From: Eubacteriales bacterium | GTDB lineage: Bacteria; Bacillota; Clostridia; Lachnospirales; Lachnospiraceae | DNA length: 64,000 nt | Assembly (NCBI GenBank): GCA_030524745.1 | Contig: JAUNGC010000003.1 | Span: forward strand, 93,860 to 157,859 | Reading direction: 5' to 3' | Shown here: positions 5,610-58,235 of the stretch, piece by piece | Layout of the letters: every line of letters starts with the position of its first letter | Position numbering within the stretch: the first letter of the stretch is position 1 | The notes under the pieces: model-generated | What the model was told of the DNA's origin: nothing | What the model saw: the letters and a program-made list of their open reading frames with translations, nothing else | Databases searched by the model: none | Translations under genes and position numbers: made by a program

Positions 5610-5950
5610 TCTGTCTCTGCGTCAGCCGGGCCGCCTTCTTTCCGAACCGCTGCCTGCCGTTTCTTCCTCCCGCGGCGCGCAGACTTTTGAAGCCATGCCT
5701 TATATGCAAAACGGTGAAATCCCCCAAAGCGTCCTGCCGTTCCTGTCGCCCGGTCCGCACTGTCTGAGCAGGCGAATCTTTGATTCGCTGCGAGTTTGCG
5801 GACCGGACGGCAGTCCGGAACGGAAGGACGCTTTGGCGGCGATTTCCCGTTTTGCATATCGGAATGGCGAAAAAGCCTGCGCGCCGCGGGGGGGAAGAAA
5901 CGGCAGGCGGCGATCCGGAAAGAAGGCGGCCCGGCGTCCGCAAAAACAGA
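5610..5950. repeat. Large foldback element E1 (341-bp imperfect palindrome)
   Basis: The whole gpr-spoIIP gap is one near-perfect inverted repeat. Arms of about 168 bases run from 5610 and 5950 to the tip GCGAATC-TTT-GATTCGC, centred at 5780. Both arms carry a core of about 38 bases (5692-5729 and 5831-5869) with the pattern GCCAT..ATATGCAAAACGG, then GAAAT and CCAAAG. Near the tip TGTCTGAGC in the left arm faces GAGTTTGCG in the right, an unpaired asymmetry that is also present in E2 (57885-58235). Frames across it are byproducts of the repeat, not genes. It resembles a foldback MITE or a REP-like family. Confidence 0.85.
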
Positions 5951-5961
5951 CCGCGGATTCT

Positions 5962-6873
5962 TTATTCTTCCAGTTCCAGCGCGATATTGATCCCTTCCGA
6001 AATGGTAAAACTCAGCCTCTTAATCATTTCATCGATATCCTTGCTCGTCACATACATATTGTTCAGTTCCGACAGCGCCTGGGGATGCTCCCGCGTCATA
6101 ATCATCTGCACGCCGTTTTCCTTTTCCAGCCGTTCCATAGCGTCCCCCACAATGGTAGCTGCGTCCACCACGGTCGGCACGCCGATCGCCAGAACCGGAA
6201 CGCCCAGCGATTCTTTTGTCAGCGCATTTCTGTGATTTCCCACGCCGGAGCCCGGATAAATGCCGGAAGTAGTCACCTGAATCGTCCGATTCAGGCGGCG
6301 CGTGCTGCGCGCCGCCAGCGCATCCACCACAATCAGAAAATCCGGCTGCGTTTCGGTCACAACGCCGTGAATGATTTCCGCGCTTTCCATGCCGGTTTTC
6401 GCCATCACGCCCGGCACAATACAACTGATCAGATGCATTTTTTCCTTATTATAAGCGGCTTTTCCAAACTCCATCACCACATGCCGGTTTACAAAAAGAT
6501 TATCCGCCACATGGGGTCCCAGCGCGTCCGCCGTCACATCCCGGTTACCCAGCCCCACAATCAATATAGACTGTTCCTTTTCCCGGTCGGGCATCACGCT
6601 CCTTAACTGTCTCGCCAGTTCCTTTGACACTTCCCGGTGGTACCCTTCATCCTGTTCCGCCATCGCCGGAGCTTCCAGCGTAATATAGGTACCGATCGGC
6701 TTTCCCATGATCCTGGCCCCGTTTTTTGTTTCGATCTTCACCCGGGTGATGTGTATTCCCGTTTCCTCCTTCTCTTCTTCCTCAAAGATGACTCCGTGAA
6801 TTTCCCCTCCGGAGTCCCCGATTCTTTCCCGGTCCTCCAGCGCCAGGTCCGTCCTCACCGTAAAACTGCTCAT
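5962..6873 (-). CDS. gpr: Germination protease GPR
   Basis: 303 aa. RTDLALE at residues 7-13 matches the autoprocessing region of GPR zymogens. The body contains GLGNRDVTADALGP and GIGVPTVVDAAT, typical of the aspartic-type GPR fold. GPR degrades small acid-soluble spore proteins during germination; it is made as a zymogen in the forespore and self-activates. The ribosome site GGAGGGAG precedes ATG 6873. It is divergent from rpsT and followed by foldback element E1. No convincing forespore promoter could be picked out in the short upstream region. Confidence 0.96.
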   Translation of the reverse strand: MSSFTVRTDLALEDRERIGDSGGEIHGVIFEEEEKEETGIHITRVKIETKNGARIMGKPIGTYITLEAPAMAEQDEGYHREVSKELARQLRSVMPDREKEQSILIVGLGNRDVTADALGPHVADNLFVNRHVVMEFGKAAYNKEKMHLISCIVPGVMAKTGMESAEIIHGVVTETQPDFLIVVDALAARSTRRLNRTIQVTTSGIYPGSGVGNHRNALTKESLGVPVLAIGVPTVVDAATIVGDAMERLEKENGVQMIMTREHPQALSELNNMYVTSKDIDEMIKRLSFTISEGINIALELEE

Positions 6874-6963
6874 CTTTTTTCTCCCTCCGCCGGCTATTCT
6901 CTCTCATAGTATACTATGCTTTGCTTTAAGCCATAGTTTTTGCAAAAATACGCAAATTATGTA

Positions 6964-6992
6964 TTGACAGAACGGTTTTCATCCCCTAGAAT
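6964..6992 (+). promoter_or_regulatory. Sigma-A promoter of rpsT
   Basis: TTGACA (6964-6969), 17-bp spacer and TAGAAT (6987-6992), about 90 bases before the rpsT start. Confidence 0.8.
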
Positions 6993-7005
6993 ACATTTGT
7001 ATGTT

Positions 7006-7038
7006 TCCATTCAAACGTCCGTGTCCTGTTTGAATGGA
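7006..7038 (+). promoter_or_regulatory. rpsT leader hairpin
   Basis: A perfect 11-bp stem, TCCATTCAAAC (7006-7016) with GTTTGAATGGA (7028-7038), closes an 11-base loop at the very start of the rpsT message. S20 autoregulation is known in enterobacteria; whether this hairpin does the same is inference. Confidence 0.5.
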
Positions 7039-7085
7039 CATTTTGAAGAATACGCATCACAGGTTGATTCAATGGAGGTATCATC

Positions 7086-7349
7086 GTGGCAAATATTAAG
7101 TCCGCAAAGAAAAGAATTTTAGTAAACCAGACCAAGGCTGACAGAAACAAAGCGATCAAGTCTTCTGTTAAGACCGCTGTCAAGAAAGTCCGCGTAGCGA
7201 TTGACGCGCAGGACAAGGAAGCAGCTAAGGCAGCTTTAATTGCTGCAACAGCTACCATCGACAAGGCTGCTACCAAGGGTGTTTACCATAAAAACACAGC
7301 GTCCAGAAAGGTATCCCGTCTGGCAAAAGCCGTTAACGAAATGGCATAA
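7086..7349 (+). CDS. rpsT: 30S ribosomal protein S20
   Basis: 87 aa, basic and helical, opening MANIKSAKKRILVNQTKADRN, the S20 signature. S20 binds 16S rRNA early in 30S assembly. The start is GTG at 7086 with GGAGG eight bases upstream. A GTG or other weak start with a structured leader is common for S20 and may limit its translation. The gene is monocistronic, with its own promoter (6964-6992) and a strong terminator (7362-7398). It sits beside gpr, as in many Firmicutes. Confidence 0.98.
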   Translation: MANIKSAKKRILVNQTKADRNKAIKSSVKTAVKKVRVAIDAQDKEAAKAALIAATATIDKAATKGVYHKNTASRKVSRLAKAVNEMA

Positions 7350-7361
7350 GTAAAAAATAAG

Positions 7362-7398
7362 ACCTCAGTTCCTGCCGTCACGGGAACTGAGGTTTTTT
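7362..7398. terminator. Bidirectional terminator of rpsT
   Basis: Stem ACCTCAGTTCC / GGGAACTGAGGT with T6 after it on the plus strand, and an A-run before it that serves the convergent DUF1284 gene. The DUF1284 stop lies inside the hairpin. Confidence 0.85.
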
Positions 7399-7832
7399 AT
7401 TTCATATTCTTTCTCCCTGCAAATGGAAATCCATTTGCAGTCTCCGCAGATTTCTTCCAGCTTTCCGGGCGCCGTCACACGCTCCCGGATTTTTTGCGTC
7501 AATTCTGTCCAGGTCAGTTCCTGGCCGGCTGCCAATCCGCATGCACGCAGCACGCTGCCGTCGTATTTTTTTGCATTCGGACAGCCGCTGTCCCGATTCG
7601 GGCAATTGGCGCAAATATCGTCCAGCCCTTCCGCCAGCCGCACGACGGTATCCGCTTTCAAGCTGTTTAAAACCGCCGCCATATTCCGGCAAAATCCGTC
7701 GCTGTAGCCATATCCTTCAAAAAAGCCGAGGCACAGTCCATGATGCGGGCGCAGATATACGGTTTCCCGGAATCCGGATTTTTCGTCACAGTCCGGCCCG
7801 AAGCCGGACTGCATCCGCTTTTCATTTAACAT
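7365..7832 (-). CDS. DUF1284 domain protein (cysteine-rich)
   Basis: 155 aa. RPHHGLC at residues 28-34 is the hallmark of DUF1284, and the cysteine sets CANCPNRDSGCPN and CGDCKWISIC suggest a metal or Fe-S site. Function is not established. The start overlaps the end of bioY by 11 bases, so it is probably the second gene of a bioY operon. A second Met at 7814 is an alternative start. Confidence 0.8.
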   Translation of the reverse strand: MLNEKRMQSGFGPDCDEKSGFRETVYLRPHHGLCLGFFEGYGYSDGFCRNMAAVLNSLKADTVVRLAEGLDDICANCPNRDSGCPNAKKYDGSVLRACGLAAGQELTWTELTQKIRERVTAPGKLEEICGDCKWISICREKEYEIKNLSSRDGRN

Positions 7833-8388
7833 GAGGCTTTAATACCTTAGTCAGCGCCACTGCCAGCGCGATCTTGCATAAATCGGGAATAATAAAAGGA
7901 ATCACACACCATCCAAGCGCCGTGCCGATGCCAATCGCTCCGCTCATTTTTGCGTAAACCACCATGAACCACGCTGTTCCGAACGCATAGCACACGGCCA
8001 GTCCCAGCACCATGGAAAGGATCATCACCGGAAGCTTCTCACCCAGTGCTTTGGTAAGTCCCCAATAGAGCAGGCCCGTCAGTAAAAATCCCAGAATATA
8101 GCCGCCGGTGGTTCCGAATAAAATACTCACGCCGCCGGAAAATCCAGCAAATACCGGAATCCCGATGGCTCCCAGCAAAATGTAAACGAGCACCGCCAAA
8201 GTGCCGCGCCGTCCTCCCAAAACGCCTACTGCCGCAAATACGGCGAATGTCTGCAGCGTGAAAGGAACGACGGTCGGAATGGAAATCCAGGAACAAATTG
8301 CGATCAGCACCGCAAAGACCGCAATATATGCCATATCCAGCGTGCTCCATTTTGATTTGTTAACAGATGTTACAGTAGTCTCAGCCAT
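7822..8388 (-). CDS. bioY: Biotin transporter BioY (ECF S component)
   Basis: 188 aa with about six membrane helices and the BioY pattern: FTLQTFAVFAAVGVLGGRRG, GGVSILFGTTGGYILGF. BioY binds biotin in the membrane and works with the general ECF module or alone. The gene has its own promoter (8459-8487) and a leader of about 65 bases. No BirA-type dyad was recognised over the promoter. Confidence 0.93.
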   Translation of the reverse strand: MAETTVTSVNKSKWSTLDMAYIAVFAVLIAICSWISIPTVVPFTLQTFAVFAAVGVLGGRRGTLAVLVYILLGAIGIPVFAGFSGGVSILFGTTGGYILGFLLTGLLYWGLTKALGEKLPVMILSMVLGLAVCYAFGTAWFMVVYAKMSGAIGIGTALGWCVIPFIIPDLCKIALAVALTKVLKPHVK

Positions 8389-8458
8389 TTTCTCATACTC
8401 CTTCGTGTAATACCCGATGAAGGCCGCCTTCTCGCGGTCCTTTTTTCAGGCTATTGCG

Positions 8459-8487
8459 AGTATAGCATCTGTCATTTTGATTGTCAA
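8459..8487 (-). promoter_or_regulatory. Sigma-A promoter of bioY
   Basis: Minus strand TTGACA (8482-8487), 17-bp spacer and TATACT (8459-8464). Confidence 0.8.
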
Positions 8488-8569
8488 CCTTGCTCCGAAA
8501 ACAGTTTACAATTTTCCGCATTCTCTCATTTTACGGCCTTTTCTTCCGTTTTTTTGCCCGGCACATACG

Positions 8570-8608
8570 AAGCCCGGCTGAACTGGAAAACACAGTTCAG
8601 CCGGGCTT
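8570..8608 (-). terminator. Terminator-like hairpin after the uracil permease gene
   Basis: A perfect 15-bp stem (AAGCCCGGCTGAACT with its complement) closes a 9-base loop. The T-run is weak on the minus strand and better on the plus strand, but its place just after the permease stop fits 3' end formation. Confidence 0.6.
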
Positions 8609-8650
8609 TTCCTTCAACTCTTCCGTTGCGCCTGACGGCCCGGTTATTTT

Positions 8651-9922
8651 TTACTCTGTTATCACGTCTTCTTTTCCTACCGGGAGAACAAGCGCCATAA
8701 TAATGCCGACTACGGCCGCCAGCGCCAGGCCGGAGATCGTCACAGTGTCCGTAACGGGAATGCTGTCGCATCCGATACCGAGCACCAGAATGATCGCTGC
8801 GGTCAGAAGGTTTCTGCTGTCGCCGAAGTTCAGTCTCGCATTGATCAGAATGCGCACGCCGACTGCGGAAATCATACCGTAAAGTACAATGCTGATCGCG
8901 CCCGTCACAGGTGCGGGAATGCTGGTGATAAATCCGCCGAATTTTCCGATGATACCAAGAATCATGGCGAATACGGCAGCAATACGGATGACGGAAGGAT
9001 CGTAAACCTTCGTCACAGCCAGCACGCCGGTGTTCTCGCCGTACGTCGTATTGGCAGGACCGCCCAGCAGACCGGCAAGAGCGGTTGCAAGACCGTCTCC
9101 GAGCAATGTGCGGTGTACGCCGGGATCTTCAAAGAAGTTCTGACCAACCACCGCTCCGTTTGTGGTGATATCGCCCACATGCTCGATCATCGTAACCACC
9201 GCGATCGGCGCTACCGCCATGATCGCATCCAGTTTAAATGCGGGGGCGCATAAAAGCTGTTTATAAACATTGGGATCCATGAAAGAAATCCAATGCGCTT
9301 CCTTCACCGCTGTGAAATCACAGAACCCGATGGGCAGGCACACCAGATATCCTACGATGATCGCGAACAGAATCGGCATCAGATTGAAAATGCCTTTGGC
9401 CCAGATGGAGACAACGATTACCGTAGCCAGAATAATCACCGTCACCAGAATCGATTTCCAACTGAATGCGCCGTTATAATAGAATGCGCTGCTGATTGCC
9501 GACGCGGACAGACGCAGGCCGATGACGATAATAACCGGTCCCGTGACGATGGGCGGCAGCAGCTTGTTCACCTTTTCATATCCGAAAATCTTAATCAGCA
9601 GGGCGAATATCACGTATACCAGACCCGCCACGATCAACGCGCCCTTCAAAGCGGCAAGCCTGTCCAGATAATCCGGATCACCCATTCTGGAATCCCCGAT
9701 GACCGCCATGATGCCGGCCATGAACGCGAAGCTGGAACCTAAAAATACAGGCACCTTCTTCTTCGTCACCAGATGGAACAGAAGCGTACCGATCCCTGCG
9801 CAAAACAGGGTGATGGAAACGTTCAGTCCCGTCAGCGTGGGTACCAGCACCGTTGCGCCGAACATCGCCAGCACATGCTGAATGCCCAGAATGATTTTCT
9901 GACTCATTGTTTTCTCACTCAT
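8651..9922 (-). CDS. Uracil/xanthine permease (NCS2 family, UraA-like)
   Basis: 423 aa from ATG 9922, which follows GAGGAGG closely; a longer reading to 10000 would cover the promoter. It starts MSEKTMSQKIILGIQHVLAM, a typical UraA/PyrP opening. Further NCS2 signs are NTTYGENTGVLAVTKVYDPS in the middle and about 14 membrane helices. It is a proton-coupled nucleobase importer, most likely for uracil. It has its own promoter; no PyrR or purine riboswitch was seen in the short leader. Confidence 0.9.
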   Translation of the reverse strand: MSEKTMSQKIILGIQHVLAMFGATVLVPTLTGLNVSITLFCAGIGTLLFHLVTKKKVPVFLGSSFAFMAGIMAVIGDSRMGDPDYLDRLAALKGALIVAGLVYVIFALLIKIFGYEKVNKLLPPIVTGPVIIVIGLRLSASAISSAFYYNGAFSWKSILVTVIILATVIVVSIWAKGIFNLMPILFAIIVGYLVCLPIGFCDFTAVKEAHWISFMDPNVYKQLLCAPAFKLDAIMAVAPIAVVTMIEHVGDITTNGAVVGQNFFEDPGVHRTLLGDGLATALAGLLGGPANTTYGENTGVLAVTKVYDPSVIRIAAVFAMILGIIGKFGGFITSIPAPVTGAISIVLYGMISAVGVRILINARLNFGDSRNLLTAAIILVLGIGCDSIPVTDTVTISGLALAAVVGIIMALVLPVGKEDVITE

Positions 9923-9990
9923 GATCTCTTCCTCCTCAGTGTATTTGTGAATGCGGATAAAACTCTCCCTGAAAAATCCCCATTTGACCC

Positions 9991-10019
9991 AGAATAGCAC
10001 AAATCACTTCGGATTCCAA
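9991..10019 (-). promoter_or_regulatory. Likely promoter of the uracil permease gene
   Basis: Minus strand TTGGAA (10014-10019), 17-bp spacer and TATTCT (9991-9996), about 60 bases before ATG 9922. Confidence 0.5.
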
Positions 10020-10031
10020 CACAAATTTCAT

Positions 10032-10790
10032 TTATTTTTTCATTTTATACACCGGATCGGCAGGATAACCGCCGCGCAGCTTCTGCATGCCCCGCTGTAC
10101 CGCGTCTTTGGAGTTCTTCCAGTCCGCATCTTTATTGAGATAATCAAACTTCTCAATCAGCCAGTCCACATCCGCGGACATGCGTTCCATGTTCCGCTTC
10201 ATCACTTCAAAAATCATCGGATAAAATTCCGCTTTCTCCTTATCGGACAGGCGGCTGTCCGCCCCGCTGCACAATTCGCCGAAATGATGCAGGCAAAATC
10301 CTTTACCGTTTCTGATTTTTTCCACGAAAGCAGAATCATTCTTATATAAATAATAAAAAGTATCCAGATATCTCTCATATTCCTTTTTAAAGCGGTCGCA
10401 GATATAACAGGTGCTCTCCCGTCCGGCAACCCACTGGCCGATCGCATTGGCAGGAACGGTCTTTTTCAACCGGTCTGTCATGGACACTTTCCCCGGCTTA
10501 AACTGTTTAAACTGCCCTTCCATGTCCTTTAACAGCTTCTTATAATAAGTCTTCAGAATCCAGCCGTTTCCCAGCGTATTGCCATAATCGAACATCTTCT
10601 GCATATGCGCCCGGCAGAATCCTTCCCGGTCCGTATCCTCCCGGACGTCGCTCTCCATATAGGAAGCGCAGGAACCAAGCGCAAAATCCAGCAGATCCTG
10701 CTCCACATTTCGTTCAATGAAGCAGAACGGGCACTCATCATTCGCATTTACCGCATCATTCAGCGGTATCGTATACAATTTTTCTTTCAT
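10032..10790 (-). CDS. DUF6062 family protein
   Basis: 252 aa, soluble, rich in paired cysteines: CPFCFIE (about 20-26), a CRAH motif, CYICDRFKKE and a FCLHHF motif. The spacing suggests metal binding through CxxC and Cys-His pairs. I recognise it as the DUF6062 family found in Lachnospiraceae; function unknown. It follows the tetR gene by 16 bases on the same strand, so the two form an operon and the regulator may control it. Confidence 0.8.
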   Translation of the reverse strand: MKEKLYTIPLNDAVNANDECPFCFIERNVEQDLLDFALGSCASYMESDVREDTDREGFCRAHMQKMFDYGNTLGNGWILKTYYKKLLKDMEGQFKQFKPGKVSMTDRLKKTVPANAIGQWVAGRESTCYICDRFKKEYERYLDTFYYLYKNDSAFVEKIRNGKGFCLHHFGELCSGADSRLSDKEKAEFYPMIFEVMKRNMERMSADVDWLIEKFDYLNKDADWKNSKDAVQRGMQKLRGGYPADPVYKMKK

Positions 10791-10806
10791 TTGGACACCC
10801 TCCCTC

Positions 10807-11409
10807 TTACCGCCGCATCATGCGCTGCAGCATATCGATATATTCGCAAATCTCCTGATAAAGTTTCTCCGGCGTAAAATCATACCGCGCCGACATTTCC
10901 GCCGTAATTCCATCTATCGTATATTGCACCAGCCGGATCATTCTCTCCGAATCTCCGATTCCGGCAAACACGCTGTAATCCGCCTGCATGGTATAGGCCC
11001 GCATCCGTTCCCGGTAGTCGCTCCGCCGCTCTTCGATCTGCTCCGCCGCTTCCTGACATTCCTCCTTAAGCCCCACATTCAGAAACTGCTGCATATAAGG
11101 ATATAACTTCATCACCTGCATTCTGGCTTCTTCCATCTGCTTGGTCAGCGCAAAAAAATCCGTTTCCGACCGGTCTACCTCTCTGGACAATTCCAGCAAC
11201 ATGAAACGTACGCTATAATCGTACAGAAAAGCGTACAGACCTGTCTTACTTTCAAAATAATGAAAAAGCAGCCCTTTGCTGATGCCTGCCTCCTTCACGA
11301 TATCATCCGTGCTCGCATGCTTATAACTGCTTCTGGCAAACACCTTAAGAGCCGCATTCATGATCCGGTCCTGTTTTTCCTGCTTTAAATCAAAAAATTT
11401 ATCGTTCAT
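10807..11409 (-). CDS. TetR/AcrR family transcriptional regulator
   Basis: 200 aa. The N-terminal helix-turn-helix reads KQDRIMNAALKVFARSSYKHASTDDI followed in sequence by a GISKGLLFHYF recognition helix, about residues 12-55. The variable helical C-terminal domain would bind a ligand. The start is ATG 11409, preceded by GGAG. It leads a two-gene operon with the DUF6062 gene from its own promoter (11454-11482). The ligand is unknown. Confidence 0.9.
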   Translation of the reverse strand: MNDKFFDLKQEKQDRIMNAALKVFARSSYKHASTDDIVKEAGISKGLLFHYFESKTGLYAFLYDYSVRFMLLELSREVDRSETDFFALTKQMEEARMQVMKLYPYMQQFLNVGLKEECQEAAEQIEERRSDYRERMRAYTMQADYSVFAGIGDSERMIRLVQYTIDGITAEMSARYDFTPEKLYQEICEYIDMLQRMMRR

Positions 11410-11453
11410 CAAAAACTCCGCTTTTGTGCCTGTTATATTTCACCCTTTTTATC

Positions 11454-11482
11454 ATGATAGCATATCAAAAGTTTCTCTTCAA
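11454..11482 (-). promoter_or_regulatory. Sigma-A promoter of the tetR-DUF6062 operon
   Basis: Minus strand TTGAAG (11477-11482), 17-bp spacer and TATCAT (11454-11459). Confidence 0.65.
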
Positions 11483-11572
11483 CCGCTAAGTTTAGAGTTT
11501 TTTTATACATACTCCTCTTTTCATTTCGGCAAAATAGTATTAAAATATAAAGAAAACATGTGGAGGGATACT

Positions 11573-12268
11573 ATGTCAAAAAAAATCAGTAAATTACTGA
11601 CGTTTGCAGTTATTGCGGGAGCCGCGGCTGCCGGCACCTATTACTATCTTCAGAATAAAAAAGATTCCGCTAAGGATACGGAAGAAGACGACGATTTCCT
11701 GGACGATCTTCTTGACGAGGAAGAAACTTCCGTCTTTGATGATACCGATTTCGACGACAGCGAATTCGACGACGACGATTTCGAGGATGAAAGCGAAGAC
11801 GCTTCCGCAGAAAATGACTCCCCCATTTTCAAAAAAGGCACCAACGAGCAGGGCCACAAATATGTAACGCTGGATTTAAAAGCGGCTCAGGACAAAGCGG
11901 CCCTCATTCGTGACAATGTTGCCAGCAAATTCGGGGAAGCCGTTACCAGAATCAAATCCAGCAGCGAGTATGAGACTGTCAGCGAAAAGGTTTCCGAAAC
12001 CGTAGATAAGATCAGAAACAGCGAAGAATTCCAGAATGCGGACGAACATCTGGAAAACGCGTTCAACAAGGTGAAAGAAGCTACCGGAAAGGCGGCTGAG
12101 ACCGTCAGCGAAAAGTTCGACGCGCAAGGGACACAGGCTGCCACGGAAGCCGTCAACGATGCGGCGCAGGCTGCGGCAGAAGCCGTCAATACCATGACCC
12201 AGGCCGCACAGGATACCGTAAAGGCCGCGGTCGATTCCTTAAAAGGAACAGACGATACAGCCGAATAA
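11573..12268 (+). CDS. Membrane-anchored acidic protein with amphipathic helical repeats
   Basis: 231 aa from ATG 11573, chosen because GGAGGG precedes it. A membrane segment (about 7-26) is followed by an extremely acidic Asp/Glu stretch (about 35-85), a short basic-hydrophobic link, then about 120 residues of alanine-, glutamate- and lysine-rich amphipathic helix with recurring SEKVSETVDKI-like units. This resembles YtxH-like or apolipoprotein-like envelope proteins, but no family is firmly recognised. It is monocistronic, divergent from tetR, and ends at a hairpin. Confidence 0.75.
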   Translation: MSKKISKLLTFAVIAGAAAAGTYYYLQNKKDSAKDTEEDDDFLDDLLDEEETSVFDDTDFDDSEFDDDDFEDESEDASAENDSPIFKKGTNEQGHKYVTLDLKAAQDKAALIRDNVASKFGEAVTRIKSSSEYETVSEKVSETVDKIRNSEEFQNADEHLENAFNKVKEATGKAAETVSEKFDAQGTQAATEAVNDAAQAAAEAVNTMTQAAQDTVKAAVDSLKGTDDTAE

Positions 12269-12328
12269 ATTACCGTTATACTGCCGGAACGGATACCGGT
12301 TCCCTGAAAATGAATAAAAGCATTATGA

Positions 12329-12360
12329 AAGCCGCATAGATCACTGCATTTATGCGGCTT
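12329..12360. terminator. Terminator-like hairpin between convergent genes
   Basis: Stem AAGCCGCATA / TATGCGGCTT with a 12-base loop, followed by a T-rich but interrupted run. It lies between the acidic protein gene and the convergent mocR gene. Confidence 0.55.
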
Positions 12361-12378
12361 CTTCCTTCAAAATTTGTT

Positions 12379-16434: not shown

Positions 16435-16446
16435 CGGACAATTCTG

Positions 16447-18522: not shown

Positions 18523-18573
18523 AAAAAAATCCGCCTGAATACTTCCTCATCCTCTCAGTCAGTACCCAGGCGG
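18523..18573 (-). terminator. Riboswitch expression platform: intrinsic terminator
   Basis: On the minus strand CCGCCTG...GTACT (18561-18573) pairs with AGTATTCAGGCGG (18531-18543), a 13-bp stem with two G-U pairs, then T7. The left strand is the CCGCCTGGG segment of the ZTP aptamer, so ligand binding and termination are mutually exclusive. Confidence 0.85.
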
Positions 18574-18634
18574 TCGATCTTTCCCGGACATGTTCCCCGT
18601 GGTGAACTCCACTGATCCGCCAGTCACACGTTCC
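18561..18634 (-). promoter_or_regulatory. ZTP riboswitch (pfl motif) aptamer
   Basis: The minus strand reads GTGACTGGCGG, then GTGG...CCAC, then a GGGGAAC segment and ACCGCCTGGGTAC. These are the conserved blocks of the pfl/ZTP aptamer in the right order. ZTP or ZMP accumulates when 10-formyl-THF is short. Binding should block the terminator at 18523-18573 and switch on IMP cyclohydrolase and AICARFT. The aptamer starts about 12 bases after the guaB stop, with no room for a promoter between them. Confidence 0.92.
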
Positions 18635-18645
18635 GTCCTATTCTT

Positions 18646-29676: not shown

Positions 29677-30606
29677 CTACTCTGCCCTTGCCTGCTGGTC
29701 TTCTTCGCTGCGTTCCTGCTGCTTCTGCGCCAGTTCCACGAATTCCTCCAGGCAAAGATTGTTCTCTTTCATAAATGCCGCCGCTTTTTCTCCCACGTAA
29801 CGATAATGCCAGGACTCAAAGGAAATCATCGTCAGTTCTTCCTTATCCGCAGGATAGCGCAAAATAAAACCGTATTCGTGCGCATGCTCGCTGAGCCACT
29901 TCGCTTCCTCCGTATCGGCCTGCGCTCTGTCAAGGCTCTGATGGCTTCTTCCCACAATGTCCACCGCCAGCCCGGTATGATGCTCGCTTGCGCCGGTCAG
30001 CGCGATCTGCTCCTTCGTTTTAAAAAAGGCCTCCGTATAGGTCATACCGCTCCGCACATATTTCGCAATGGATTTATCCATCAGAGAATCCTGCTTTTTA
30101 TAATCCCGGTAAGAGGAACATACCATCAACTGCAATCCCTCTTCTTTTGCATCCGCAATCATCGTTTCCAGCGCCGTCTTAATTCTTTTATCGACATTCT
30201 GTCCGTCCACAGTCGCCACGATCTGCGGTTCAAAATCCTTAGAAAGCGGATGCAGTTCGTTCACCAGAAGATACTTCCAGTCATCCAGATCTACCGTGAA
30301 AGGAATCTCCGGCATTTCCGCCTCTTCCTGCTCAATCTGCGCCATAACTGCCGCAAGTTCTTCCTCTTCTTCCCGCAATTCTTCATTCTCTGTTTCCATC
30401 TCGTCAAGCTGCGCCATGACTGCATCCAGGTTTGCCTGCAGCGACGCCTTTTTGCTCTCCGCATCCTGATAATAGAAAAAGAAACAACTGCCCAACATCC
30501 CAAACAGCACAACGAAACAGCCAAGCATGACCGCGGTGCGCCTTCTGTAATTATGTACCTGTACTTCTGTATTTTCCACTTTTTTCACTGCTTTCTCTTC
30601 TGTCAT
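29677..30606 (-). CDS. D-alanyl-D-alanine carboxypeptidase, VanY/M15 family
   Basis: About 309 aa from ATG 30606. A membrane helix (about 25-45) and a glutamate-rich coiled coil precede the M15 zinc peptidase domain with SEHHTGLAVD and SWHYRYVG, which hold the zinc ligands H, D and H. It trims the terminal D-Ala from peptidoglycan stem peptides. Translation could also start as far upstream as 30720, adding repeated TERSEVIR segments. However, the likely promoter -10 box is at 30710-30715, so those bases are probably leader RNA. Confidence 0.9.
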   Translation of the reverse strand: MTEEKAVKKVENTEVQVHNYRRRTAVMLGCFVVLFGMLGSCFFFYYQDAESKKASLQANLDAVMAQLDEMETENEELREEEEELAAVMAQIEQEEAEMPEIPFTVDLDDWKYLLVNELHPLSKDFEPQIVATVDGQNVDKRIKTALETMIADAKEEGLQLMVCSSYRDYKKQDSLMDKSIAKYVRSGMTYTEAFFKTKEQIALTGASEHHTGLAVDIVGRSHQSLDRAQADTEEAKWLSEHAHEYGFILRYPADKEELTMISFESWHYRYVGEKAAAFMKENNLCLEEFVELAQKQQERSEEDQQARAE

Positions 30607-30709
30607 GAAGCGTATGACCTCACTTCGTTCGGTCTTGGGGAACCTTCTCAACCGCTTCGCTTGTTGAGAAGTAGCGCGTATGACCTCACTTCGTTCGGTC
30701 ATACGCTTC
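30607..30709. repeat. Nested palindromic repeat cluster (GAACGAAGTGA type)
   Basis: Two copies of GACCGAACGAAGTGAGGTC (minus strand) lie 60-odd bases apart, each followed by ATACGC. Between them is a second hairpin, CTTCTCAAC / GTTGAGAAG with loop AAGCGAAGCG. The outer ends GAAGCGTATGACC and GGTCATACGCTTC are themselves inverted, so the cluster folds as hairpins within a hairpin. If translated, it gives two TERSEVIR peptides. Confidence 0.8.
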
Positions 30710-30738
30710 ATTATATCCACAAAGAGGCCCGGTTACAA
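30710..30738 (-). promoter_or_regulatory. Promoter of the D,D-carboxypeptidase gene
   Basis: Minus strand TTGTAA (30733-30738), 17-bp spacer and a perfect TATAAT (30710-30715). Transcription would begin at the edge of the palindrome cluster. Confidence 0.65.
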
Positions 30739-51226: not shown

Positions 51227-51238
51227 AACCGGGGGGCG

Positions 51239-51449
51239 CACCTCCGGGGGGCGCCTGCGTTTGACCGCAGCCACGGACAGCGCCGGTATCCCTTGTTTCC
51301 GGACACGCTTTCGCTCAGAGAAATGCGTAACAGTACATAACGTCGCAAAGAACGCGACGTAAGAACTGACGCATTTCTGACGGTCCGTGCAACAAGGGAT
51401 ACCGGCGCTGTCCGTGGCTGCGGCCAAACGCAGGCGGCCGCCGGAGGTG
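51239..51449. repeat. Large foldback element E3 (about 211 bp)
   Basis: Arms of about 58 bases pair from CACCTCCGG (51239) to CCGGAGGTG (51449). They include long exact parts such as GCCACGGACAGCGCCGGTAT. The tip region holds two more nested stems: AGAAATGCGT with ACGCATTTCT, and ACGTCGC-AAAGAA-CGCGACGT. It has no core in common with E1/E2 but the same architecture and the same kind of place, between two convergent genes. The 70-aa frame across it is not a gene. Confidence 0.8.
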
Positions 51450-51469
51450 AAACACCGGAAAGATAATTC

Positions 51470-52849
51470 TTAGTCTTTCATGCGCACCACGTCGCCGTCT
51501 GAAAATTCTTCCGTGGCGCTTTCAATGATTTTATCGTTTTCATCGATTGCTCCCGCTTCCAGCGCCGCATACCGGTCATTTTGCTCCAGCACATTCACCA
51601 TTCTTTTGCGCGCCACAAGTTCCTTCCCCAGAATCGTATCCGTCTCTTCCAGCACATAGACAAAGCTTCTCTGGTTTTCATCCTGATGCAGGGCGTCCAG
51701 CGGCACGCAGCAGGAATAAATTTCAGACGAAACGCTTAGAACAAAGGTCCCGTTCTGGCCGATGCTTCCCGTATTTTCAGGCAGCAAAATCCCTGCCGCA
51801 TAGCTTCCCGGCATACTTGCGATTTCCGTCAGATAGTCCACTGTGACCGGAATCTTTCTGCCGCCTGCCGCCTGATAGCTTCCCAGAGACAGTTCCCCTT
51901 CCGCCTTCGGTTCCACATATTTTTTCTGCTCCGGATCCAGAATCGCTTCAAACTGCAGGGGAACGCTTCCGTCTGCAAAGGTCACAACGGGCAGTTCCGT
52001 CGTAATCTGTCCTGCCGCCACGCCGACCTGGGTGACCGTTCCCGTGATTCCGGAATAAATTTCCCCGTCGTCCTGTAAATAGGCCCGGAGTTCCTCCATT
52101 TCTTCCTTCATATGATTGAACTCCATCCAGTCCACCCCCAGCGTCGCGTCCGAATATTGCTGTGTCATGCTGTCCTCAATATTTCGATACGCCTGTGTAT
52201 AAGCGGCTTCCAGCGCATCCTGGGCGTCCCTCGTTACGCGCGCAGTTTCCCGCACCTTATTTTCACAGGCCTGCCGCCCTTCCTCCCATACTTTCCACGC
52301 TTCCTCGCTGTCGTCCTCGGGCGTATCCTCCACATACTGATCCAGTTCATACCGGGCGATCGCTTCGTCCTCCTGCGCCCGCTCCAGATTTTTTCGTGCT
52401 TCCGCAAAAGCCGTAATCGCATCCTCTCCCGCCCGTTCCATCTCTCTGTCCTTTTCCAGTCCTGCAATTTTCTGATTGCTTTCCAAAGTGGCGATCTGCA
52501 GTTCCAGCTTTTTTGCCTCCAGTTCCTTTTGCGCGATCAGTTCTTCAATATATTCCGTATCCAGCGTAAAAAGAAGCTGTCCCTCTTCCACCTCGTCTCC
52601 GACGCTCACAAATACTTCCTTCACCCGCAGCCCGGCTTCCATATTGGCCGCCAGTTCCTTCGACGGCTTCACGCTTCCCGCCGCATTCACTTCATGCGTA
52701 ATCGACATCCGCTTCGGGCTTCCTGTTGTCACCTGCGGAAGCCGCGTCGCATATATGCCTTTGGAAACCAGCGTGCCAAGAAACATCAGCGCAAAAAATA
52801 TCCCCAGCCCTAGCACAATTTTTCCGTTTTTTCCCTTCATTTTTCCCAT
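51470..52849 (-). CDS. HlyD-like membrane fusion / adaptor protein
   Basis: 459 aa. An N-terminal membrane helix (about 9-29) is followed by a lipoyl-type half (VNAAGSVKPSKELAANMEAG), a long alpha-hairpin coiled coil (about 100-250), the second lipoyl half (GEIYSGITGTVTQVGVAAGQ) and beta-barrel domains. Such proteins bridge ABC exporters to the envelope. Here it is the third gene after two importer-type permeases, an unusual partner. It lies 37 bases after the second permease gene and is the last gene of the operon. Confidence 0.88.
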   Translation of the reverse strand: MGKMKGKNGKIVLGLGIFFALMFLGTLVSKGIYATRLPQVTTGSPKRMSITHEVNAAGSVKPSKELAANMEAGLRVKEVFVSVGDEVEEGQLLFTLDTEYIEELIAQKELEAKKLELQIATLESNQKIAGLEKDREMERAGEDAITAFAEARKNLERAQEDEAIARYELDQYVEDTPEDDSEEAWKVWEEGRQACENKVRETARVTRDAQDALEAAYTQAYRNIEDSMTQQYSDATLGVDWMEFNHMKEEMEELRAYLQDDGEIYSGITGTVTQVGVAAGQITTELPVVTFADGSVPLQFEAILDPEQKKYVEPKAEGELSLGSYQAAGGRKIPVTVDYLTEIASMPGSYAAGILLPENTGSIGQNGTFVLSVSSEIYSCCVPLDALHQDENQRSFVYVLEETDTILGKELVARKRMVNVLEQNDRYAALEAGAIDENDKIIESATEEFSDGDVVRMKD

Positions 52850-52886
52850 CCAGTCCTTTCCCTGTTCCTGTGTCCTCTGCTCTTCT

Positions 52887-53753
52887 TCACGCTTTCAGCC
52901 CCGACGCCACTATTCCCTGTTCCAGATAATCCTTTCCCAGCAAAAAGGCGAAAACCGCCGGAATCAATGTGATCACGGATACCGCAAACGCCTCTCCTGC
53001 CTTCTCCGGACCGATCTGGGGCAGATACAGGGACAGAGGCCATAACGTTTTGTCCTTTAAAAAAGCCAGCGGCTGCTCAATCAGATTCCAATATTCCAGA
53101 AATCCCAGCACCATTGCGGCCAGCACGCTGCCGGACGACAGCGGCAGCCCGATTTTGAAAAACAGCATAAGTTCCCCCGCCCCATCGATTCTCCCGGCGT
53201 CCAGAAGTTCTCTCGGAATGGCCGCAAAGCCCCGATAGCACAAAAACACCGGGAAGGTGGAAAAGACAGCCGGCACGATGATTGCAAGATGGGTATCCAT
53301 CATGTTCAGCCGGTCCAGCACCAGATATTGAGAAAGCATGGTCACCTGAAACGGCATCAGCATCAGCACAATATAGATCCGGAATAAAATCCGGCTTCCC
53401 TTAAAGCGATACACGGCGAAGGCCCAGGCAGAGGGCACCGCCACAAGCAACTGTCCGGCCAGTATGCTCCCCGTCATCTTTACCGAATTCCAGAACACCA
53501 CAAAAAACTGGGGCGTCAAAAGGAGCAGCTTTTTGTAATGCTCCGGCGTCGGATAATCGGGAATGAGCCGCCAGCTTATGTATCCGTCTTTTCCATCGAG
53601 CGCCGGCCCTAAAAAAACGCCCAACTCCTGACGGCTCATGACGGAGCCGGACCAGACAAAGACGACAGGCGCCAGCATCAGGACGGCAGGAACGGCGAGC
53701 ACCAACAGCCGAAGCAGAGCCGCCGCTTTCTTTTTGATCCATCTAAAATTCAT
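52887..53753 (-). CDS. ABC transporter permease, MalG-type (sugar family)
   Basis: 288 aa from ATG 53753, overlapping the stop of the partner permease (ATGA). Six membrane helices with the EAA-type loop ELLDAGRIDGAGELMLFFKI, where the ATPase docks. It resembles carbohydrate permeases of the MalG/UgpE group. No ATP-binding protein is encoded nearby, so a shared MsmK-like ATPase is presumed. Substrate unknown. Confidence 0.9.
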   Translation of the reverse strand: MNFRWIKKKAAALLRLLVLAVPAVLMLAPVVFVWSGSVMSRQELGVFLGPALDGKDGYISWRLIPDYPTPEHYKKLLLLTPQFFVVFWNSVKMTGSILAGQLLVAVPSAWAFAVYRFKGSRILFRIYIVLMLMPFQVTMLSQYLVLDRLNMMDTHLAIIVPAVFSTFPVFLCYRGFAAIPRELLDAGRIDGAGELMLFFKIGLPLSSGSVLAAMVLGFLEYWNLIEQPLAFLKDKTLWPLSLYLPQIGPEKAGEAFAVSVITLIPAVFAFLLGKDYLEQGIVASGLKA

Positions 53754-54577
53754 CCCGCCGCCTCTCCTTCCTCCCACAACCTTGTGAGCAGTAAAATCAG
53801 AATAAGCAGCGCCGCGGCCAGACAGACGGCGGCTGCGGCCATCTTATCCAGTTCCAGCCAGACAAACCAGTTGTTAAAAAGATGCTGCAGCAAATACATG
53901 CTCTCCTGCGGATAAGCGCCTGCCACCAGATATGCCTCCCGAAAAACCTTAAAAGAATTCAAAACCGACAAAACCGCAATCGTATAAAAAACGCCTTTTA
54001 ACTGCGGCATCAGAACAGACAGAAAGATGCGGATCTTTCCGGCCCCGTCCGCTTTCGCGGCCTCTATGATATCCGAAGGGACTCCAAGAATTCCCGCCAG
54101 CCACAGCACTACCGTATAGCCGAGGTTTTTCCAGACATAGGAAAAAACCAAAACCCAGAAGGAAAGATCCGTTCCCATAAAATCGATCTGCCGCCCCATA
54201 AGAGCATTCAGAAACCCTCCCTTCGAGAACACCATTTTCCACACCAGCACAATCGTGGCGGCCGGCATCGCCATAGGAAATAAAAAAATTGCCTTTAAAG
54301 TCTGCGCCTGCTTCAGCCCCGCCAGCAAAAGCGCTGTCAAAAGCCCCAGAAAAATCAGAAGCGGCAGACAGACGGCGGTAAAGCGCGCCGTATTTTTCAC
54401 CGCCAGACGAAAGGCTTCATTTTCAAAAACTCTTCTGTAATTATAAATCCCCACAAATTCTCCCGTCACCGCGGTCATAAAAGAACACCGGAGCACATCT
54501 GCAAAAGGCAAAAGCACAAAGCAGAATACTCCGGCGAATCCTGGTAAAATAAAAGCTGCAAACCAGCGTTTTTTCAT
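53750..54577 (-). CDS. ABC transporter permease, MalF/UgpA-type (sugar family)
   Basis: 275 aa, six membrane helices, with the EAA loop DIIEAAKADGAGKIRIFLSV. GGAG-rich sequence precedes ATG 54577. It leads an operon with the MalG-type permease and the HlyD-like adaptor. Its promoter (54613-54645) has the same tandem repeats as the lipoprotein and response regulator promoters 17 kb away, so the binding lipoprotein at 35.3 kb is the likely partner. Confidence 0.9.
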   Translation of the reverse strand: MKKRWFAAFILPGFAGVFCFVLLPFADVLRCSFMTAVTGEFVGIYNYRRVFENEAFRLAVKNTARFTAVCLPLLIFLGLLTALLLAGLKQAQTLKAIFLFPMAMPAATIVLVWKMVFSKGGFLNALMGRQIDFMGTDLSFWVLVFSYVWKNLGYTVVLWLAGILGVPSDIIEAAKADGAGKIRIFLSVLMPQLKGVFYTIAVLSVLNSFKVFREAYLVAGAYPQESMYLLQHLFNNWFVWLELDKMAAAAVCLAAALLILILLLTRLWEEGEAAG

Positions 54578-54612
54578 ATGTTCCTCTGCTCCTCAAAACT
54601 CCTTTTTCTCTG

Positions 54613-54645
54613 AGTGTAGCAGAACCTTCTCTAATATTTCTCTAA
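54613..54645 (-). promoter_or_regulatory. Promoter and tandem operator of the permease-HlyD operon
   Basis: On the minus strand two TTAGAGAA repeats start 11 bp apart; the second starts 16 bp before TGC-TACACT (extended -10, 54613-54621). The design equals that at 37580-37612 and 37671-37703. Confidence 0.75.
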
Positions 54646-54653
54646 TTCCTCCG

Positions 54654-57365
54654 TCAGGGGACGATTTTTTCCGTAAACAGAACCTTCTGATCCTCCAGCC
54701 TGATAAAATCCACCGTTTTATCCTCTCTGACCGGTGAAAAACAGACCGGTCCATTGACATAACGGGCCGTCGTCCCCTTCAGTTCTTCCCTGTCAAAAGA
54801 ATTGCTGTACTTTTCTTCGGGCCTTATGGCGTAATGGCCGTCAGCGTCAATAATTCCCCAGCAGCCTCCCACATTGTCAAACATCTTCACCGTCCGGTCT
54901 TCATAATAAACCTCCTGCGCCGCTCCTGTAAGAACCGCGGCATAGCCGTTATGAAATCCCTTTGCCACACAATATTGAAACGCGATTGCCGTTTCCCCTG
55001 CGCCGTCTAAGTATCCATACAGTCCGGTATCCAGATCCAGCACGCAGTAAAGCCCTTCCGAAAATTCTTCCAGCCTCACATTTCGGTATTCTTTTACCGC
55101 CTCAAACCCGTCATCGTAAAATGTGAGCGTTTCTTCCCCATTGTTGGCAGCGCACAGCGCGTCTCCCGCCGCATACAGACTGACGGAACCGCTCCCCTCC
55201 GGTATGGAAAACACAATCTCTCCTTTTACATCATCAACCGCATAAACGACGCGGTCATAACGGTAAAAAAGAAGCCCCTTTTCTTCCCAGGAACAAAGCA
55301 GTTCATCAAACCGTCTCGCCCCGATCCGCCGGCTTTGATCCATTGTTTCAAACCAGGAAGGACATTCATATGGATTCTCAATTTTCCAGCCAGCTTCATC
55401 CACATAACAGACCACCTGCCGCCACCTCTCATCCGCGCCGCCCAGGTTCTCCACCGGTTCCGGTTCATATAAAAAGCTTCCGTTCCAGCCCTCATCCACG
55501 ATCCTCCCGGTTTCTCCGCCGTCATACCGCGCTTTCAGATTCTTCATATAAGCGGCCGTTTTCTCCGTCCAGACAAATAAATCTTCCTCGCTCCCCAAAA
55601 CCTGCCGGCTTATCATAAGGTTTCCGATATCCAGTTCCTTCTGATAAGAAAAAGCCCGCTGCCCGTCCGAAAGCCTTTCTCCTATCCCCTGATATAGTTC
55701 CTCCTCAGGCGGACACATGGAAGCATTTCCCCGATACAGCCGCTTTTCCGGGATATCATAGCGATAAAAATCCTCCGAGTCAAACGCATGCAGATAAACG
55801 GCAGTTCCGTCAGCAGACACCCGCACTTCCGTATAGGAATCTCCCTGGGTGGCGCTGCAGCCAATCGATCTTAAATCCAGCGTGTCCACAATTCCCGATT
55901 CCGCTTCTTTCTCCCCATACCGATATACCACCAGCCCGAAATAATCGTGAAAAATTACAACTTCCTCACCCACGTAATCCAATTGCGGCCCGTCCGATCC
56001 AACGGAAGTGGCCGCAGAAAAAAGCGCCTCTTTCTTTTCCAGCAGAACTTCTTCGATTCCGTTTTCGCTTCCTGTCTCTGTCTCCTGCTCCCGGACATTT
56101 TCCTTGCCGCCCAAAAGGGCCGGATCCAGTACGGCGGCTTCCTCAGAAGCAGCTTTTGTTTCGATTCCCGTTTCCGTTCCCATTCCGGCTTCCGTTTCTG
56201 TTCCCGTCTCCGGTTTCGTACAGCCGACGGCCCCTGTCAAAATCAGCAGGAATAAAGCGGCGGCTAAAACGCTCTTTTTCATCCTTCGCCTCTCTGCAAT
56301 TGCCCGAATGCGTTCCCCTATTTCCTTCTTTCCGCCCGCCATGCCCGTGGTGATAAGAAAGGCCTTCATTCCGTTTCCGTCCAGAAGTTTTAGAAGTGCA
56401 AATCCATACGCTTTCCGCTCTTCTTTCCCCATCCTGCTCACCACGCTCTCGTCGCAGGCCAATTCCGCATCACGCGCGCTGGCTATTGCGCCCAGCCACA
56501 CAAGCGGATGAAACCAGTAAGCTACGCACAGCAAATTTCTGCAGAAATTCCAGATATGATCCTTCCGGCGAAAATGGGCCTGCTCATGCAAAAGCGCCAT
56601 TTTCAGAACTTCCCGATTCTGAACCGCCTTCTCATTCACATAAATGACCGGACGGAATACCCCTGCCAGACAGGGAGACGCCAGCCCCTTCCGATAGTAT
56701 ACCTGCGGCATTTTTTGATTGGCTGCAAGTTCTGCCGCAAGTTTTTCGGGCAATTCCATTTTCACGGCGCCCTTCTTTACCGTTCGGAAAAACCGGACGT
56801 TTTTCTCCAACAGAACAGTTCCCGTCAGCATACAGCCTGCCAGCCACAGAAGAATGCTCCAGTCAGGCGCAAACGCTGTCTCTGTCCCGCCCCGGACCAC
56901 AGCCCCTTCTCCGGCGCTTTCTGCCGCTGTCAGCAAGTCCTGTCCGCTTCTTTCATCCGCTGTCCGGACCTCATTCTCACCTTCCCTTATCCAGATCCGG
57001 CTTTCATCCGCTCCGTCTCCAACGTTTTCTGCATTTTCCCCTCTGTCCCCGGCAGTCTCTTCTGCCAAAGAGCCTTCTCCTGCCCTCTGCGCGGGTCCTT
57101 GCGCTATATCATCACCGGTTTTCGTCTCTTCTTCCCACGCCCGCTGCCGTATTTCCTGCACCAGCGTATAGGGATGCAAGCCGCTCCATACCGGTGCCGG
57201 GGAAAGCGGAATCAGCCAAAACGGAAACAACAGCCTGACCGCCGGAATCAGCCAGAGAAAGTATATGCTCCGGGCCGATAAAGCCTTTCGTCCAACCTTC
57301 CCGATCAGGAGAACCAGCGCAACAAGCAGACTGCTCTGCAGCATGAAATAGAAAAAATCCCCCAT
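54654..57365 (-). CDS. M56 (BlaR1-type) metallopeptidase sensor with WG-repeat-like C-terminus
   Basis: 903 aa. N-terminal membrane helices flank an acidic insert (about 75-165), and the zinc site H260-E-Q-A-H264 lies in a BlaR1/MecR1-type peptidase domain. After a membrane helix ending in GAVGC (about 385-400) comes an outside region of about 490 residues. It has propeller-like strands and near its end WG-type repeats (LYGYLDGAGETAIAFQY, CWGIIDADGHYAIRPE). In place of the penicillin-binding domain of BlaR1 this part probably senses another cue. It is one base after blaI. Confidence 0.88.
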   Translation of the reverse strand: MGDFFYFMLQSSLLVALVLLIGKVGRKALSARSIYFLWLIPAVRLLFPFWLIPLSPAPVWSGLHPYTLVQEIRQRAWEEETKTGDDIAQGPAQRAGEGSLAEETAGDRGENAENVGDGADESRIWIREGENEVRTADERSGQDLLTAAESAGEGAVVRGGTETAFAPDWSILLWLAGCMLTGTVLLEKNVRFFRTVKKGAVKMELPEKLAAELAANQKMPQVYYRKGLASPCLAGVFRPVIYVNEKAVQNREVLKMALLHEQAHFRRKDHIWNFCRNLLCVAYWFHPLVWLGAIASARDAELACDESVVSRMGKEERKAYGFALLKLLDGNGMKAFLITTGMAGGKKEIGERIRAIAERRRMKKSVLAAALFLLILTGAVGCTKPETGTETEAGMGTETGIETKAASEEAAVLDPALLGGKENVREQETETGSENGIEEVLLEKKEALFSAATSVGSDGPQLDYVGEEVVIFHDYFGLVVYRYGEKEAESGIVDTLDLRSIGCSATQGDSYTEVRVSADGTAVYLHAFDSEDFYRYDIPEKRLYRGNASMCPPEEELYQGIGERLSDGQRAFSYQKELDIGNLMISRQVLGSEEDLFVWTEKTAAYMKNLKARYDGGETGRIVDEGWNGSFLYEPEPVENLGGADERWRQVVCYVDEAGWKIENPYECPSWFETMDQSRRIGARRFDELLCSWEEKGLLFYRYDRVVYAVDDVKGEIVFSIPEGSGSVSLYAAGDALCAANNGEETLTFYDDGFEAVKEYRNVRLEEFSEGLYCVLDLDTGLYGYLDGAGETAIAFQYCVAKGFHNGYAAVLTGAAQEVYYEDRTVKMFDNVGGCWGIIDADGHYAIRPEEKYSNSFDREELKGTTARYVNGPVCFSPVREDKTVDFIRLEDQKVLFTEKIVP

Positions 57366-57366
57366 T

Positions 57367-57744
57367 CTAATCCTCCATTTCTTCCAGAAGCTGTCTTAAC
57401 TGATTCCGCTCACCTTCCGTCAATTCCTGCCCTTTCACCGCATTTGACACCATCAGCATCAAATTTCCGCCGTAAACCCGCTGCAACAAAGAATCCGTCT
57501 CCTCCCGCACTGTTTTCTCCTGATCCCAGAGCGCCCGATATTCCTTCACCTTTCCGGATTCGTCCACGCCCACAGCGCCTTTTACTTCCATTCTTTTTAA
57601 AAAGGAAATCACCGCGTGCCGCGTCCAGCCCTTTACAGGCTTTAACGCCTCGCAAATCTCCCGAAGACTCCGCGGCGACTTCTTCCAAAGCACCTGCATG
57701 ATATACCATTCATTCTCCGACAATCCCGTATGCCTTTCTTCCAT
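57367..57744 (-). CDS. BlaI/MecI family repressor
   Basis: 125 aa. The winged helix contains LSENEWYIMQVLWKKSP and TRHAVISFLKRM. The C-terminal dimerisation helices carry the region where the M56 peptidase normally cuts. It should repress its own operon with the M56 gene until the sensor is triggered. Two matching dyads flank the promoter at 57773-57857. The next start is one base after its stop. Confidence 0.93.
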   Translation of the reverse strand: MEERHTGLSENEWYIMQVLWKKSPRSLREICEALKPVKGWTRHAVISFLKRMEVKGAVGVDESGKVKEYRALWDQEKTVREETDSLLQRVYGGNLMLMVSNAVKGQELTEGERNQLRQLLEEMED

Positions 57745-57772
57745 CTTATTTCCCGTCCCGTTCCTTTATTTT

Positions 57773-57857
57773 GTAATCATTTGGTTACCGTTTGTTCATA
57801 GTATATCAAGCATGATATCAGATGTCAAGAAAATAGTAATCATATGATTACTATTTT
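57773..57857 (-). promoter_or_regulatory. blaI-M56 promoter flanked by two dyad operators
   Basis: Minus strand TTGACA (57823-57828), 17-bp spacer and TATACT (57800-57805). Upstream is a perfect 28-bp palindrome (57830-57857) centred on CATATG with half-site AAAATAGTAATCAT. Downstream is a second, imperfect copy, GTAATCATTTGGTTAC (57773-57788). Operators on both sides fit BlaI autorepression. Confidence 0.8.
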
Positions 57858-57884
57858 TCAATTTTTAGAGTATAAAATTTTAAA

Positions 57885-58235
57885 GCCCGCCGATGGATTC
57901 TCACCGCCTGCCGCCGCTGTCTCTCCTGCCGCGACCTCTGACGGCCCTGCACAGGTATTTGCAGCCATGACTGATATCCAGGACGGAGAAATTCTCCAAA
58001 GTCCGGACAAGTTTCTGCCGCACAACACGCATTGTCTGAGCCACGGCACTCTGGTTCGCTCAGAATCAGAGTGCCGCGGTGAGTTTGCGTGTTGTGCAGC
58101 AGCCTGGAACTTGTCCGGACTTTGGTTAGAATTTCCCGTTTTGGATATTGGAATGGCAAAAATACCTGTGCAGGACCGTCAGAGGTCGCGGCAGGAGAGA
58201 CAGCGGCGGCAGGCGGTGAGAATCCACCGGCGGGC
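57885..58235. repeat. Large foldback element E2 (351-bp imperfect palindrome)
   Basis: The arms pair almost base for base from GCCCGCCG (57885) and CGGGC (58235) to the tip stem CGGCACTCTG / CAGAGTGCCG. Each arm carries the same core of about 38 bases as E1 (57964-58001 and 58120-58157), with GCCAT, ATATCCA, GAAAT and CCAAAG. TGTCTGAGC in the left arm again faces GAGTTTGCG in the right. The outer arms differ in sequence from E1, yet each is self-complementary, so pairing is conserved while sequence is not. Confidence 0.85.

Follow-up and report, generated by a model that had tools for sequence, protein, structure and literature searches.

Dispersed foldback elements with a conserved tip and locus-specific arms in Lachnospiraceae: probable arm maintenance by replication template switching

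The two long foldback elements present in the 64,000-nucleotide stretch of Lachnospiraceae DNA analysed here (the window) are best read as members of a dispersed, non-coding and non-autonomous foldback (hairpin) family, the arms of which were probably maintained and extended by template switching during replication, with dispersal as a separate step; we place the probability of this mechanism at approximately 0.6. Comparison of close relatives disclosed the footprint of such a process, namely both-sided changes at paired positions above the level expected under independence, together with loop inversions. The family also behaves as a mobile element in combining a high copy number, at least 30 in the genome from which the window was taken (the home genome), with element-free sites in relatives, findings that support the first-pass annotation in its suggestion of a foldback, MITE-like element shaped by a copying mechanism and extend it beyond the two copies from which it was drawn.

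Architecture and distribution of the elements

The first element (E1), placed by self-alignment at 5606..5954 of the window (349 bp, motif on the plus strand), lies between spoIIP and gpr, directly 3′ of the gpr stop codon and ahead of spoIIP. It comprises a core common to other copies (5691..5869, plus strand, its row in core alignment A1) and a tip of the form ACTGTCTGAGC - hairpin - GCGAGTTTGCG, located by tip-pattern matching at 5759..5800 on the same strand. The second (E2), likewise placed by self-alignment at 57885..58235 (351 bp, motif on the plus strand), lies past the end of a LOR-domain gene and ahead of one of penicillinase-repressor type, with its core row in A1 at 57963..58158 (plus strand) and a tip at 58033..58089 (plus strand) in which TGTCTGAGC faces GAGTTTGCG. 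Genes were called by ORF length, except for eight proteins with domain matches. RNA folding z-scores of −21 for E1 and −29 for E2, with none of 100 shuffles equally good, confirmed both as real long near-perfect foldbacks, and their intergenic position, each after a gene end, was as initially described. When 141 overlapping 900-nt segments were scored for self-complementarity, the highest values were those of E2 (195), E1 (158.5) and a third hairpin, E3 (97.5); the next-best segment (45.5) held part of E1, and the median was 12.5. The only Rfam match in the window, which did not involve E1 or E2, was a ZMP-ZTP riboswitch at 18557-18637 on the minus strand, and a separate inverted repeat, in which the word GACCTCACTTCGTTCGGTC recurs, was observed at 30605-30711.

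With E2 as the blastn query, 50 match rows were obtained from the home genome. Core alignment A1 was assembled from 26 of the 30 home copies (L017, C22:13375, C40:84562 and the weak C21:202493 being omitted), and the covariance model built from these 26 cores, R1, located 30 motif-strand matches there, of which 29 scored 156 bits or above and one 91 bits. Matches to R1 were present in 8 of 13 genomes of the genus, the home genome included, with 13 places in G211, 12 in G201 (16 rows), eight in G209, five in G204, three in G207, one in G202 and a weak one in G205; across the family, 5 of the 200 genomes drawn gave matches, one being the home genome and one (G060) a partial match. All such copy counts are lower bounds, since the candidates scored per genome were limited to 150 in the genus search and to only 12 in the family draw. 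Outside the genus, three genomes of the family, each from a different genus (G015, G098 and G130), carried full-length matches in which the tip was kept and the arms looked unrelated yet folded. Parts of E1 and E2 used as blastn queries disclosed no plasmid or phage relatives, and searches by sequence or by topic brought up no account of the family among the open-licence publications listed.

The copies measured ranged from 207 to 530 bp and shared a common layout: the tip ends in a hairpin that varies in length, below which lie an unpaired, asymmetric tip loop in which TGTYTGA faces GAGTTT, then stems of changing sequence, the conserved core and finally the outer arms. The pair formed by TGTCTGAGC facing GAGTTTGCG, originally described as common to E1 and E2 along with the core, recurred with the core throughout the 26 copies of the alignment, at times in variant form (TGTTTGAGC and GAGTTTACG, for example); the tip loop remained unpaired in these copies, and most also kept an internal GAC/GGA mismatch in the core. 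The claim that E1 and E2 are unlike outside the core, with pairing kept in each, proved correct and applied more generally: the inner ~180 bp was common to the copies, while the outer arms differed from copy to copy, though some shared part of their sequence. Across 26 copies (L009 being dropped), 1940 of 2155 outer-arm positions (90%) formed Watson-Crick pairs, and the outer 5′ arms of the home copies were strongly A-poor (A 162, T 481, C 835, G 678). Mismatch in successive 15-nt bins outward from the core was 6, 4, 5, 10, 18, 16 and 23% over the first seven bins, the later and sparser bins giving 10% of 58 positions, then about 25%, and finally 0 of 2.

The tip itself was far more widely distributed. 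In the genus search the tip pattern matched the home genome 12 times, whereas the reversed pattern, used as a control, gave no match. When the form CACTGTYTGAGC-hairpin-GCGAGTTTGC was searched as GCACTGTYTGAGCN{3,30}GCGAGTTTGC against a set holding one genome per species, at least 118 stretches were recovered from the genomes of other species in several phyla, as compared with a chance expectation, estimated arithmetically, of well under one. Among the matches listed were Lachnospiraceae, Anaerococcus, Peptoniphilus, Diplocloster and Gastranaerophilales, with further titles from Deltaproteobacteria, Nitrospirota, Rheinheimera and Burkholderiales; many of the genomes listed were MAGs and some were isolates. 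Self-complementarity reached at least 25 nt past the tip on both sides at 86 of 120 tip sites, one of the 120 being on a viral contig. Viral contigs gave only this one tip match (L209:11122-11153), situated at the contig end after an ORF that by eye resembles a tyrosine integrase. Rfam searches of 19 distant loci gave no match above the gathering score for the elements, only two riboswitches and a T-box.

Tip loops of three bases were of the form GNA in 46 of 50 cases, and mini-hairpin loops of the d(GCGNAGC) type are unusually stable in DNA; the bare 26-mer tip was not predicted to fold stably as DNA by the energy model. The tip might conceivably form a kink-turn, and the core loop a tandem G-A arrangement. 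Where two relaxed tip matches occurred in a single distant locus, they were arranged minus-then-plus in 8 of 9 loci (L112, L133, L137, L139, L141, L182, L188 and L195), in the manner of head-to-head paired repeats. For L112, in which two opposite tips surround a small gene, an integron attC interpretation was considered and dropped on inspection by eye.

The third hairpin, E3 (51228..51450, no strand assigned; z-score −16), has the same architecture and is a member of a second family, termed family B, whose conserved motif lies at 51296-51323. Its matches, many of them short and to this motif, amounted to 18 rows in the home genome, 37 in G209, 34 in G211 and 16 in G207. By eye, the motif when reverse-complemented resembles the tip of the first family.

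Changes in arms, orientation and site occupancy

The arm covariation sought in consequence of the first-pass annotation proved to be strong. In the core alignment 97.4% of cells were paired and 43 of 69 pairs had changed on both sides (26 of the 30 copies); the covariation score was 0.388 as against 0.160 for shuffled data, none of 500 shuffles reached any of five measures, and shifting the partner by one column reduced pairing to 45.5% or less. Such covariation above controls is also the pattern expected from templated arm repair. A more recent view was provided by eight sites at which two or more of G207, G209 and G211 have the element in common. When each site contributed a single comparison, 91 one-sided and 23 both-sided changes were counted over 1030 paired positions, the both-sided ones against 4.6 expected under independence, a comparison in which both elements had been picked as palindromes, which favours pair-keeping changes. 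Eighteen of the 23 both-sided changes were from one Watson-Crick pair to another, or 21 of 26 if all 11 comparisons, which are not independent, are counted. Among the recent one-sided changes, interconversions between Watson-Crick and GT pairs (41) were not significantly in excess of those between Watson-Crick and AC (32; p 0.35), so that the fast compensation did not visibly proceed via wobble intermediates.

Among the diverged home copies GT exceeded AC in the self-alignments of 27 elements (205 vs 107), in the outer arms alone (96 vs 63) and in A1 (66 vs 13 cells), an excess suggesting a role for the motif strand in its folded form and qualified by the relatedness of the copies, some GT cells being common by descent. 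We read the arms as the outcome of templated repair combined with a degree of selection on, or recognition of, the core's folded motif strand. Arm copying without restraint would be expected to erase both the tip loop and the GAC/GGA mismatch, and selection or recognition must therefore also act.

The same eight shared sites disclosed inversion in place. At three of them (C74/C11a, C64/C86 and C22a/C11b) the element's middle lay inverted with respect to the genes on either side, and at the other five it did not. The central 20 bases at the inverted sites matched at 1.00 when inverted and at 0.50-0.60 when read directly; the corresponding values at two control sites drawn from the five uninverted ones were 0.45 inverted and 0.95-1.00 direct. 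The flanks matched directly, with two exceptions: the last bin of C74/C11a, and the left-hand side of C22a, at which an extra hairpin is present in G209.

At certain loci the arms also extended into host sequence. Two home copies ran into coding ends, the palindrome of L029 overlapping smpB (Pfam SmpB, E 1.7e-62) by 12 nt and that of L017 overlapping a GH20 gene (E 6.1e-23) by 19 nt. In each case the opposite arm carries an inverted copy of the gene end; both captured ends are short and imperfect. In G211 an extra element (L242), absent from the same place in G209 (L253), had an outermost left arm that continued the host flank as found in G209, with an inverted copy of it on the right. Alternatively, the arrangement in G209 could be a scar.

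Element-free sites bore on gain and loss. Throughout the relatives spoIIP and gpr were adjacent, and in all 11 of those read (G203 being left out of the inspection) a short spacer without an element lay at the E1 site, which makes it most likely that E1 was gained in the home-genome lineage; an empty site in relatives, of the type that the first-pass annotation had proposed looking for, was thus found. With at least 30 copies and strong covariation besides, all three of the grounds on which that annotation would have given up a mobile or RNA family (two copies only, no covariation, no empty sites) fell away. E1 and L069 were ruled out as one site, the former lying 3′ and the latter 5′ of gpr. 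Only the right-hand gene of the E2 site was recovered from relatives, with no palindrome beside it in L292-L294 and, in L293, a bare relaxed word of the tip; L295 matched only the middle of the E2-site query and is uninformative about that site. Where G211 (L052) and G207 (L050) share an element, G209 has a plain hairpin instead, CCGGGAAAAATAAACCCG facing CGGGTTTATTTTTCCCGG; the element in the other two genomes sits inside this host hairpin, so that its outermost arms equal that hairpin. The G211 element at the L238 site was absent from G207 and G201, and at this site G209 has ~37 nt matching one outer arm with few mismatches, either a deletion scar or captured flank. Some element-free sites, including this one in G209 and that of L242/L253, could therefore be deletion scars. 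Reading by eye disclosed no target duplication at the G209 and G207 sites, which were among the few that could be read. T runs, of the type that follows the hairpin of an intrinsic terminator, were present in the flanks at some element ends only. At L249:2229-2459 in G209, a 232-bp family B hairpin stands beside a shared element and is absent there from G211 and G207, and at L301:2700-2900 G207 has another hairpin with a different tip where G211 has the element L239.

Alternative explanations

A structured RNA family, of which the motif strand would be transcribed and the fold selected, with ordinary RNA covariation and with spread effected within a retro- or DNA element, is unlikely to account for these elements. 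It would accommodate the strong covariation, the conserved internal loops and tip, and the preponderance of GT over AC in the diverged copies, as well as a positional regularity: in 12 of the 27 home copies measured, E1 and E2 included, an ORF ends no more than 20 nt from the 3′ side of the motif strand and is always antisense to it. Other home copies were between divergent ORFs (as called by length), and at distant sites with ORFs on both sides the 3′-side ORF pointed to the element in 53 of 82; orientation is therefore biased, not fixed. However, inversion in place at three of the eight shared sites would reverse any transcript, recent one-sided changes lacked a significant GT preference, and neither the elements of the window nor those of the 19 distant loci matched an Rfam family. 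Movement in single-stranded form by a trans-acting HUH Y1 tyrosine transposase, in the manner of REP/RAYT or TIRYT hairpins, we consider decidedly unlikely. Dispersed hairpins with conserved unpaired bases and the minus-then-plus arrangement of paired relaxed tips would be consistent with it, families with self-complementary terminal inverted repeats tied to Y1-type transposases are described in PMC3733652, and G209 has both elements and Y1_Tnp. The home genome, however, holds only a 42-position Y1_Tnp fragment (PF01797) with stops, and six element-bearing relatives (G201, 58% complete; G202; G204; G205; G207, 68% complete; and G211) gave no Y1_Tnp match, while G206 and G208 have Y1_Tnp and no R1 match, and none of six Y1_Tnp loci inspected carried the tip or the family B motif. 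The suggestion in the first-pass annotation of a HUH (REP-type) mobiliser was accordingly set aside, PF01797 not being linked to the elements in the home genome or the genus, the case of G209 notwithstanding.

A partner enzyme beside the distant copies was also sought, by comparing all ORFs of 100 aa or longer from loci L091-L209 with one another, and none was found in the best 40 clusters: the largest cluster comprised ABC transporters (13 loci), and the next two came from 10 and 7 deltaproteobacterial loci. The 10-locus cluster was checked and rejected as a partner gene because its ORFs mostly overrun the element, and the remainder were judged by eye to be housekeeping genes or neighbourhoods common to related genomes. 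Ordinary MITEs, or decayed transposons in which long terminal inverted repeats enclose a short centre, would share the 207-530 bp non-coding character, dispersal and presence/absence variation of these elements, but are a very improbable explanation given that the middle and not the ends is conserved between copies, that the outermost arms are locus-specific and in part host-derived, and that the few sites read by eye were without target duplication.

Proposed mechanism and comparison with known systems

Template switching during replication would proceed from a region that becomes single-stranded, whereupon the hairpin may form. The conserved tip might start this fold, be recognised by a putative factor, or both. 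A nascent 3′ end could then switch template inside the hairpin and copy the opposite arm (template-switch or quasipalindrome mutation), and a single switch would re-make arm pairing in one step. A switch made and then reversed on the other strand would leave the middle inverted, and copying past the arm would place an inverted copy of the flank on the other side, such that the arms would grow from host sequence. The repair of the arms, their growth into flanks, the inversions and the rise in mismatch away from the core would all follow from template switching in the hairpin. Dispersal to 30 sites, the conserved tip and the compositional bias of the arms are outside what it explains.

A broader and distinctly speculative possibility is that of a self-templating foldback class in which the tip is the sole inherited core and its surroundings, host flank included, are remade at each locus, the cross-phylum tip provoking or guiding template switching and perhaps dispersal into other hairpins without a dedicated transposase. 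The family also draws attention to a tip sequence common to several phyla and to its putative recognising factor. Covariation is widely read as evidence of functional RNA, and replicated natural loci of the present type could separate selection on RNA structure from templated DNA arm repair as its causes. They also suggest a route by which bacterial genomes may gain inverted copies of gene ends.

Bacterial MITEs are small, non-coding elements that form long stem-loops and vary in presence or absence, all four traits being held in common with the elements described here; in contrast to MITEs, the present termini are not conserved and the arms differ at each locus. In chloroplast DNA, small hairpin-loop inversions flip the sequence between inverted repeats from one related species to another, and the middles of the present elements likewise flip between relatives; the chloroplast inversions are not, however, a dispersed repeat family with a conserved tip. 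According to PMC8794818, template switches are able to create and maintain hairpins, repair stems and, rarely, invert loops, and the hairpins described there resemble the present elements in having perfect stems made or repaired off the opposite strand and in their loop inversions; that work deals with RNA genes, whereas the footprint described here recurs at many sites of a dispersed family with a conserved tip. REP, REPIN and BIME sequences associated with RAYT or TIRYT enzymes (PMC3733652) are likewise dispersed hairpins with conserved asymmetric bases and some pairs in opposite orientation, but are 20-40 bp in length with a conserved foot, REP/RAYT hairpins having a GTAG or CGTC tag alongside, as against 207-530 bp and a conserved tip here, and the REP/RAYT transposase link contrasts with the lack of a Y1 transposase in most element-bearing relatives. 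Dispersed bacterial hairpins as such are therefore already known; what is new is the combination of a conserved tip with locus-made arms, inversion in place and captured gene ends.
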